Positions 56,077-58,484 of a stretch of DNA of 64,000 bases are shown here, piece after piece. The notes beneath the pieces were generated by a model that saw only the letters and a program-made list of their open reading frames with translations, was not told the DNA's origin and searched no databases. The stretch covers positions 1 to 64,000 of the forward strand of contig JAURNL010000081.1 of assembly GCA_030830205.1 (NCBI GenBank), in the 5' to 3' direction. Source of the DNA: Crocinitomicaceae bacterium (lineage in GTDB: Bacteria; Bacteroidota; Bacteroidia; Flavobacteriales_D; Crocinitomicaceae). Numbering within the stretch: position 1 is the stretch's first letter; each line of letters starts with the position of its first letter. Position numbers and translations under genes: made by a program.

Positions 56077-56180
56077 ATTTTGAATTCACTTTACTGATGA
56101 ACCACTAAATTAAAAGAAATAAACTATCTTTCTTTGCGCATGCAACTTTTTCAAAACCATATACGTCATTGCTAGAAGTC

Positions 56181-56708
56181 ATGGATGAACAAGAACTTAT
56201 ACAAGGTTGTATTGCTGCTCGTCCTAAGGCTCAAAAAGCGTTATTTGACATCTATGCCCCGAAGCTATACGTCGTGTGCTTGCGTTATTTGAAAGACCAA
56301 ATGCGCGCCCAAGACGTTTTGCAAGACACCTTTGTTAAAATTTTTGCCAATATAAGCAACTATAAATCCGAGGGTGCATTTGAAGGATGGCTCAAAAGAA
56401 TTACAGTAAATACTTGCCTTGATCAATTGCGCAAGGACAAAAAACTACTGACCGATATTTCCATTGAAGACGTCTCTTACCAACTTGCAACACAAAGCAC
56501 TAGTGCAGAAAAACTTATGGCCGACGACCTGCTCAAACTTGTTAAGGCGTTGCCAGACGGCTACCGTACTGTCTTTAACCTTTTTGCCATCGAAGGTTTT
56601 TCACATCAAGAAATTGCCCAACAATTGGGGATTTCTGAAAGCACCTCCAAAACACAATACCTCCGCGCTCGGGCCTATTTGAAAGAACGTATTGAAAACA
56701 TAGATTAA
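56181..56708 (+). CDS. RNA polymerase ECF sigma factor
   Basis: Region 2 AQDVLQDTFVKIFANISNYKSEGAFEGWLKRITVNTCLDQLRK; region 4 GYRTVFNLFAIEGFSHQEIAQQLGISESTSKTQYLRARAYLKE. Confidence 0.95.
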   Translation: MDEQELIQGCIAARPKAQKALFDIYAPKLYVVCLRYLKDQMRAQDVLQDTFVKIFANISNYKSEGAFEGWLKRITVNTCLDQLRKDKKLLTDISIEDVSYQLATQSTSAEKLMADDLLKLVKALPDGYRTVFNLFAIEGFSHQEIAQQLGISESTSKTQYLRARAYLKERIENID

Positions 56709-57557
56709 ATGATTGAAAAAGACCAAATAAAAGAACTATTTGCCAATGGCCTCCAGGACCATCAAGTCCAGGTAGACCCAGCATTGTGGTCTTCTGTTTC
56801 GTCATCTATAGGTGCTGGCGCAGCCAAAACAGGGCTTGGGCTTTTAGCAAAAACGCTTATTGGCGTTGCGGCAAGTGGCTTAGTGGCAGTGGCAGTTTAT
56901 CTATCGTTACCAACACAAAACCCTGAACCTAAAAAGAAAGAGTTAAAAACGCTCCAAGAAGCTGGCAAACCAAAAGAAAGCAAAGAAGTCATCGCTACAC
57001 AAATAATTAAGCCGACTATTCAAACATACTATAACAATCCACCAGAACTAGGATCCTTTGACATCAATGACGACGACCTTTTTATTCAAGATTTTGAAGC
57101 GCAAAATGTTCCAGAAACGACCACTGAAGAGCCGTCTATTGGTACTGAAATCATTCGGTCTTCTGCAGAATTACTTGTTCCTGTTCAACCAGTTCAACCA
57201 GCATTAGTTAATCCAAACTCTATTTCTCAAGCACAAATACCTAATGAGCAAGCAGCAGTAGCCCATTCAAAAAAAGTCATCCAAATTTCATTGCCAAACA
57301 TCTTCACGCCAAATGGAGATGGTCAAAACGAAACCTTGCAAATAGACTGGGGGGGATCTACTGTAGAAGATTTCAGCATTGTAGTGCTAGATGCCAAGAA
57401 TGCGGTCGTATTTAAAAGTAGCAATCCTGACTTTAACTGGAATGGTGCAGATTTAGGTGAAGAAAAGTTGCCAAAAGGTCATTACGTCTACTTTATTTCC
57501 GCGGTGATCAATGGTCAAAAATGGCAGCAATCACGCAGTTTACAGATTCAGTACTAA
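56709..57557 (+). CDS. Putative transmembrane anti-sigma protein with gliding/T9SS type B-like C-terminal domain
   Basis: About 45-residue N-terminal region, one TM (LIGVAASGLVAVAVYLSL), linker, then LPNIFTPNGDGQNETLQIDWGGSTVEDFSIVVLDAKNAVVFKSSNPDFNWNGADLGEEKLPKGHYVYFISAV. Confidence 0.75.
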   Translation: MIEKDQIKELFANGLQDHQVQVDPALWSSVSSSIGAGAAKTGLGLLAKTLIGVAASGLVAVAVYLSLPTQNPEPKKKELKTLQEAGKPKESKEVIATQIIKPTIQTYYNNPPELGSFDINDDDLFIQDFEAQNVPETTTEEPSIGTEIIRSSAELLVPVQPVQPALVNPNSISQAQIPNEQAAVAHSKKVIQISLPNIFTPNGDGQNETLQIDWGGSTVEDFSIVVLDAKNAVVFKSSNPDFNWNGADLGEEKLPKGHYVYFISAVINGQKWQQSRSLQIQY

Positions 57558-57578: not shown

Positions 57579-58484
57579 ATGCCGCTTATCTTCTGCATCG
57601 TCAATGGAAGCAAAAAGATTTCTGCTTCAAATCAAAAGCTCATTGCAGCGCTTGAACTAACGTTTGGCGCACAATTCCAAATTTATCATACCAATGTTCC
57701 AGATGAAGCAATGAAATATATTCATGCGCTTGATAACAATTGCACTCACTTAATTGGGGTTGGGGGCGACGGTACTTTCAATGTGCTTGTCAATGCTGTT
57801 TGTACGCACCCCCTTGAAAATTTTGAGCCTATACTTGGCATCATTCCAAATGGAACAGGAAATGATTTTTACCGCTCTGCCGGATATAAAAAAGAATTTT
57901 CTTTCTTGAAAAGCATAGCAAGTGAATCATTTCAGCGTTTCGATATCGGTATGATTAAAACACCATTAGAAACAAGATATTTCGCCAATATAGCCGACAT
58001 TGGTTTTGGAGGTGCTGTAGTTTTAGAACTGCAAACCTTTAGAAAGAAATTTGGAGCGAATTTTTCATACGGATTAGCAATTATCAAAACCTTTCTTCAA
58101 TACAAAAGGCCACAGGTGAGTATTTTCTCATCGGATTTCACCTATAATGGCGAGCTCTTACTCGCTGCTTTTTGTAATGGCAGTATTTTCGGAGACGGAC
58201 TATACATTCATCCCGGAGCTCAGATCAATGATGGTCAATTAAAGCTCACACTTTTGGGGAAAGTATCTTTATTGGATTATCTAAGAAATGTAATAAAAGT
58301 TAAGCGAGGTAAAAAAATTAATCACCCAGAGGCACAATATTTACAAATTGGATTTCCCATTTCCATCAATTGTCCAACTGCGTTTTTACACGCCGAAACT
58401 GATGGTGAATACCTTGGGGGCTCTCAATTTGAAATTGATTTATATCCAGGAAAGCTTAAATTACTGGATCCGGAGACACCATAG
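57579..58484 (+). CDS. Diacylglycerol kinase/YegS-family lipid kinase
   Basis: HLIGVGGDGTFNVLVNAV; LGIIPNGTGNDFYRSAGY. Confidence 0.92.
   Translation: MPLIFCIVNGSKKISASNQKLIAALELTFGAQFQIYHTNVPDEAMKYIHALDNNCTHLIGVGGDGTFNVLVNAVCTHPLENFEPILGIIPNGTGNDFYRSAGYKKEFSFLKSIASESFQRFDIGMIKTPLETRYFANIADIGFGGAVVLELQTFRKKFGANFSYGLAIIKTFLQYKRPQVSIFSSDFTYNGELLLAAFCNGSIFGDGLYIHPGAQINDGQLKLTLLGKVSLLDYLRNVIKVKRGKKINHPEAQYLQIGFPISINCPTAFLHAETDGEYLGGSQFEIDLYPGKLKLLDPETP

Follow-up and report, generated by a model that had tools for sequence, protein, structure and literature searches.

An ECF sigma factor and a putative anti-sigma factor with a degenerate type IX cargo signal: a candidate circuit for one cargo class in Crocinitomicaceae

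Introduction

In flagellar systems, the secretion-coupled anti-sigma factor FlgM, a soluble protein that is itself exported, acts with sigma28 to control synthesis of that system's own cargo. A coupling of anti-sigma factor and secretion is likewise proposed for the locus described here, where, unlike FlgM, the protein sits anchored in the membrane and bears a signal domain that looks unfit for export.

Within the type IX secretion system (T9SS), Porphyromonas gingivalis PorA acts on the ECF sigma factor SigP through PorY/PorX (PMC7712824, PMC4800418). That system also places a protein with a T9SS CTD upstream of an ECF sigma factor controlling T9SS genes; however, PorA is a separate, surface-located CTD protein that uses a two-component route to machinery targets (PMC7712824, PMC4800418), whereas here the CTD-like domain is fused to a putative anti-sigma factor and the predicted targets are type B cargo genes. 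In Flavobacterium psychrophilum, the SM6 promoters are of ECF type with a CGT box and serve T9SS genes together with a small RNA and a sigma/anti-sigma pair (PMC9723704). This promoter class resembles the one predicted here in what it spans, but its T9SS targets are machinery genes (GldN, PorU), and the organism belongs to a different family.

The traits compared for Dma proteins were an adjoining ECF sigma gene, a cytoplasmic domain with a transmembrane (TM) segment and an outer-membrane (OM) barrel, with partner sigma factors of group ECF21. Dma systems and the present locus share a place in the Bacteroidota, an ECF sigma gene directly upstream, and the order cytoplasmic domain, one TM, periplasmic stretch and a C-terminal domain at or near the outer membrane (PMC13088901, PMC9308784). 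The likeness is drawn through profile matches to OM-barrel proteins of another order, described below. The Dma C-terminus is a beta-barrel, in contrast to the CHU_C beta-sandwich found here, and the regulon here is predicted T9SS cargo.

Results

A sigma factor gene paired with a putative anti-sigma factor gene

The window is a stretch of 64,000 nucleotides (contig JAURNL010000081.1) from the Crocinitomicaceae assembly GCA_030830205.1, which comprises 2.0 Mb in 122 contigs and clusters with MAGs of Crocinitomicaceae. The locus has the following features:

56141..56167, + strand: predicted autoregulatory ECF promoter, TGCAAC-N18-GTC (TGCAACTTTTTCAAAACCATATACGTC), 13 nt 5' of the sigma ATG
56181..56708, + strand: ECF sigma factor, 175 aa (Pfam Sigma70_r2 and r4_2), with orthologues adjoining the anti-sigma gene in 55/55 loci
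56709..57557, + strand: putative transmembrane anti-sigma factor with CHU_C tip, 282 aa
56709..56852, + strand: cytoplasmic N-terminus, putative anti-sigma domain, aa 1-48, with V22 and W27 near-invariant
56853..56909, + strand: transmembrane helix, aa 49-67, hydropathy 2.07, positive-inside charge pattern
56910..57278, + strand: disordered Pro/Glu/Gln/Lys-rich linker, aa 68-190, pLDDT mostly ~45-57
57279..57554, + strand: CHU_C domain (PF13585), a degenerate T9SS type B-like signal, aa 191-282, beta-sandwich with pLDDT 83-98
57393..57401, + strand: AKN in place of the cargo-invariant RWG, aa 229-231
57534..57554, + strand: RSLQIQY in place of the cargo terminal G-x-[VI]-x-L-x-R

The sigma protein exceeds the Pfam cut-offs for both Sigma70_r2 (61.9 bits) and r4_2 (58.5 bits), and the ORF coordinates confirm that its frame, ending at 56708, abuts the partner ATG at 56709, as an earlier sequence-only reading had it. 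In all 55 Crocinitomicaceae loci fetched, the sigma gene lies immediately 5' of the anti-sigma gene on the same strand, so the pair is not a chance arrangement. The anti-sigma start falls -29 to +2 nt relative to the sigma gene in 50 of 52 distinct loci, and the genes mostly overlap. A protein search returned a match in each of the 100 Crocinitomicaceae genomes searched, in some of them through the CHU_C part alone. The combination of a TM and CHU_C beside an ECF sigma gene, to which the same reading had drawn attention, is present at every one of the 55 family loci and recurs in other families. A DAGK_cat/YegS-like lipid kinase gene (57579-58484) starts 21 nt past the anti-sigma gene in the close genus group; it was rejected as a member of the conserved unit, as it is not found beside the pair across the family. 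Many relatives encode a second sigma/anti-sigma pair (L158-L162, L137, L175), in which the anti-sigma protein is ~380-450 aa long with a far more divergent CHU_C-like end and the upstream motif differs (GGCAACC..); this second pair has no match in the window's genome.

The partner protein has the predicted layout of ~45 cytoplasmic residues, one TM, a linker and a C-terminal CHU_C domain, with ~48 residues before a TM at ~49-67 and the last domain recognized by Pfam. By hydropathy there is no Sec signal peptide, the sole TM-grade hydrophobic segment being preceded by 48 largely polar residues. Across 53 sequences (the window's protein plus orthologues), the 20 residues that precede the TM carry a net charge of +1.4, against -0.25 on its other side, so an N-in topology fits. 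V22 occurs in 53/53 of these sequences and W27 in 52/53. The linker, at ~125-130 residues, could be long enough to span to the outer membrane. Within the genus, identity is 79% for the cytoplasmic part, 72% for CHU_C and 28% for the linker; the tip is thus under selection, being close to the anti-sigma domain in identity while the linker drifts. Pfam gave no match to FecR or zf-HC2 up to E = 10, and no known anti-sigma domain was matched in the partner protein.

Profile A1, made from the first ~70 residues of the protein, has matches in 137 of 199 genomes of the order. Several other families of the order combine this putative anti-sigma domain and TM, with or without a PKD domain, with CHU_C beside a sigma gene (both PKD and CHU_C were confirmed). 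OM-barrel proteins that adjoin sigma genes in another order of the class bear the A1 N-terminus (E 1e-6 to 5e-3), and an OMP_b-brl_2 domain was found in one of them. Because the same N-terminus carries either CHU_C or an outer-membrane barrel, it appears to be an anti-sigma module whose sensor domain can be swapped. The anti-sigma role first suggested for the partner is well supported by universal adjacency, mostly overlapping genes, the conserved N-terminus with V22/W27 and the recurrence of that N-terminus on OM-barrel proteins; aa 1-48 would bind the sigma factor. Longer Crocinitomicaceae orthologues (350-400 aa; L138, L075 and others) carry a PKD domain between linker and CHU_C. The T9SS translocon gene SprA is present in the window's genome, but co-occurrence with T9SS is uninformative as evidence because the system is near-universal in the order (SprA in 196/199 genomes).

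A degenerate cargo signal at the tip of the protein

The C-terminal domain, which had been taken for CHU_C, matches PF13585 at 54.9 bits (cut-off 27; residues 194-276). Its match to TIGR04131 (cut-off 35) is borderline, at 33.5 bits with the whole protein and 37.2 bits with the domain alone. The type B hallmark is only partly there: PNIFTPNGDGQNE and WNG are present, whereas RWG and the terminal G-x-[VI]-x-L are absent. In the CHU_C domains of cargo from the same genome (n=21), the RWG positions hold R in 21/21, W in 20/21 and G in 21/21; in anti-sigma CHU_C domains (n=53) the counts are 1/53, 0/53 and 7/53, respectively. The terminal glycine follows the same pattern (21/21 own-genome cargo domains versus 2/53 anti-sigma domains). 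The core motifs PNxFTPNxDG, W[DN]G and GxYxY are near-invariant in the anti-sigma domains. Among the anti-sigma CHU_C domains of other families, several retain the terminal GxVTLxR, and the W of RWG is absent in those examined. With the cargo-invariant RWG and the terminal glycine lost, the tip reads as a degenerate secretion signal that is unlikely to be exported, which weakens the idea of a decoy, taken literally as a signal competent for export. The same losses may leave the tip unable to bind any T9SS component.

AlphaFold predicts a confident beta-sandwich at ~191-282 and a disordered linker. Foldseek with the predicted tip returned the T9SS substrate/CTD structures 8GLK_D (TMt 0.69) and 8GL8_D, as well as PorZ 5M11 and PorU 6ZA2, but Ig folds are generic: the top matches are streptococcal peptidases, and FlgD also matches. 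A sequence search of the PDB with the protein gave nothing.

A promoter motif before the sigma gene and before one class of cargo

Alignment of the regions upstream of the sigma genes revealed a family-wide element, TGCAAC[CT]TTT-N14-GTC. The core GCAAC-N18-GTC is present in all 61 upstream regions with sequence (62 were taken; 1 was without sequence) and usually lies 13-20 nt 5' of the start codon. The promoter at 56141-56167 scores 31.8 bits with a PWM derived from the family sigma promoters, the window's own site included; the next best site in the window scores 10.6 bits, and the background is 1 position of ~128,000 at >=10 bits. Matches to the motif outnumber those to the reversed pattern 26 to 3 in nine genomes of the genus and 143 to 14 in 61. 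A motif 5' of the sigma gene across the family is what one would expect of an autoregulated ECF sigma factor, and because of this predicted autoregulation it is likely that this sigma factor, and not another ECF, reads these promoters. The same regulon did not emerge from strict-pattern scans of families f3 and f9: the pattern GNCAAC..RTC gave 18 matches against 8 for the control, with no clear cargo, in three f9 genomes and one f3 genome, and TGCAAC found only sigma genes and one doubtful site in two f3 genomes.

Strict matches in the window's genome lie ahead of the sigma operon, of the gene for a LuxR-type regulator (214 aa; motif 108 nt upstream) and of that for a 780-aa choice-of-anchor-L/PKD/CHU_C cargo protein. 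A less strict one is found before a 133-aa gene whose downstream neighbour encodes a 748-aa SprB-repeat/CHU_C cargo. A LuxR-type response-regulator-like gene with the motif 106-108 nt upstream was observed in five genomes (L179 = G000 C42; G054, G093, G066, G023). By their final residues, the type B CTDs of the genome can be sorted into an 'HGFxHL' and a 'GxVxLIR' class, which class-specific HMMs separate, and the CTDs of predicted targets here and in relatives end in EEGxYFY...HGF or similar. PWM sites precede 6 of 7 cargo genes of the HGF class (CTD end HGF/HGL/QGF) and 0 of 12 other CHU_C cargo genes (Fisher p = 2.6e-4), with scores of 10.2-31.6 bits for the six cargo operons. The prospective part alone comprises five further HGF-class genes, four of them with sites on the correct strand (20.9, 13.2, 10.2 and 21.8 bits) and the fifth scoring 2.7, giving 4/5 against 0/12 (p = 0.002, hypergeometric, by hand). 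These sites vary in quality: a distance of 138 nt separates the 20.9-bit site from the first ATG, GTC is replaced by GTT in the 13.2-bit site, and the 10.2-bit site is near background, although its orthologue in three genomes (G085, G041, G570) has the full motif in the same place. No T9SS machinery genes were seen among the predicted targets. PorP/SprF adjacency was tried as a marker of cargo class and set aside because the cases were too few to use: of 7 PorP genes, 3 have a non-HGF CHU_C gene as neighbour and 0 an HGF-class one.

The tip itself scores 48.9 bits with the HGF-class HMM and 43.9 with the other (HGF greater in 42/53), placing it only slightly nearer the HGF class; descent from HGF-class CTDs is not claimed. 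By search score, its closest paralogue in the genome is the C24 cargo protein, a predicted regulon member.

Forty regions around motif sites were examined, 2 of them in the window's genome. HGF-class CHU_C cargo follows 24 sites (22 in relatives; genera g1, g7 and g20), either directly or as the second gene after a small protein, and 2 further sites precede probable HGF-class cargo cut by contig ends. At least five unrelated cargo families are represented among the 24 sites, which are not independent because many are mutually orthologous. The remaining examined sites precede a sigma gene (2), small-RNA arrays (5), a secreted protein without CHU_C (1), an unrelated protein (1) or no convincing gene (6).

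Small secreted proteins of 121-134 aa are encoded directly before HGF-class cargo genes and are apparently co-transcribed with them (L289:2189-2584 and L229:209-607; similar genes in L225, L226, L237, L238, L231, L324 and L331). The two that were scanned have no Pfam or NCBIfam match, and these proteins are possibly cargo-specific partners. Tandem arrays in the same genus (L314 = G564 C49, L315, L316, L317, L318, L305) contain 2-5 units each, every unit consisting of the same ECF promoter, a 55-80-nt ORF-free stretch and an intrinsic terminator. Two units have fold z values of -3.7 and -5.0, and Rfam returned nothing above gathering scores. The arrays are probably small RNAs of this sigma factor's regulon; they were not seen in the window's genome.

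Discussion

We propose, at a probability of roughly 0.55, that the ECF sigma/anti-sigma pair forms an autoregulated circuit controlling one class of T9SS type B cargo, in which a mimic of the cargo tag reports T9SS or cargo status. Supporting this circuit, as read from sequence, are the architecture, its conservation, the degenerate signal, the predicted autoregulatory promoter and the motif before cargo genes. In the proposed scheme, aa 1-48 would hold the sigma factor at the inner membrane, and the disordered linker would span the periplasm with the degenerate CHU_C domain at its end. This tip would be engaged, or released, by a component of T9SS or of the outer membrane with which cargo CTDs also interact, and the anti-sigma factor would then be inactivated, most likely by regulated proteolysis. 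The freed sigma factor would transcribe its own operon, the LuxR-type regulator and the HGF-class cargo genes, such that cargo synthesis would follow the secretion state. In the simplest mechanism, the tip and real cargo CTDs would meet the same partner, and sigma activity would track secretion load or capacity. What we infer is that the anti-sigma factor binds the sigma factor, that this sigma factor reads these promoters, that release is by proteolysis, which partner takes part and in which direction the response runs. The original suggestion of a T9SS-linked decoy or sensor is supported in its T9SS link, through the sigma motif before one CTD subclass of cargo, and weakened as regards a decoy with a competent signal; the tip may still sense T9SS occupancy.

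A generic envelope-stress anti-sigma factor of the Dma type seems unlikely. The CHU_C domain would then serve only as a tether between the protein and a surface structure or the outer membrane, OM damage would free the sigma factor, and the cargo would serve surface remodelling. Dma/sigma pairs do answer envelope stress or control vesiculation (PMC9308784, PMC13088901), in another order an OM beta-barrel is joined to the same N-terminal domain and TM, and in some relatives the small-RNA arrays with this motif recall the logic of sigmaE; however, the predicted regulon is narrow and enriched in the one CTD cargo class that matches the sensor's domain type, and genes for OM chaperones, Bam or lipids are absent among the sites examined. 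It is rather improbable that CHU_C is now an ordinary Ig-like ligand sensor with no T9SS link, reading a surface polymer or metabolite that calls for adhesin-like proteins: near-invariance of PNxFTPNxDG, W-D/N-G and GxYxY, and the terminal GxVTLxR retained by several domains from other families, argue against a reading that draws on the lost cargo-invariant residues, the generic Ig fold and the PKD domain that longer family members add before CHU_C. That the partner is an inner-membrane or surface protein merely sharing the operon is very improbable, since the unmatched anti-sigma Pfam domains are set against universal adjacency, mostly overlapping genes, the near-invariant W and V of the cytoplasmic part and the same N-terminus beside sigma genes with other C-terminal domains.

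A more specific form of the secretion-coupled circuit is offered tentatively, as a possibility that we hold with some doubt: a non-exportable mimic of the cargo CTD would compete with cargo for the shuttle or translocon, the outcome would set transcription of the matching cargo class, and the protein would be the first T9SS secretion-coupled anti-sigma factor. In the literature searched, 'gliding motility-associated' was not found together with 'anti-sigma', and the claim of novelty is limited to that literature.

The locus bears on how Bacteroidota match the synthesis of T9SS cargo to its export. The domain at the tip of the putative anti-sigma factor derives from the signal that the cargo itself bears, and the motif of its sigma factor marks one CTD-defined class of cargo. 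This yields a named candidate sensor, a promoter and a set of predicted targets, and splits type B CTDs into two classes that would be differently regulated. If true, the circuit would give the type IX system a membrane-anchored counterpart of FlgM.
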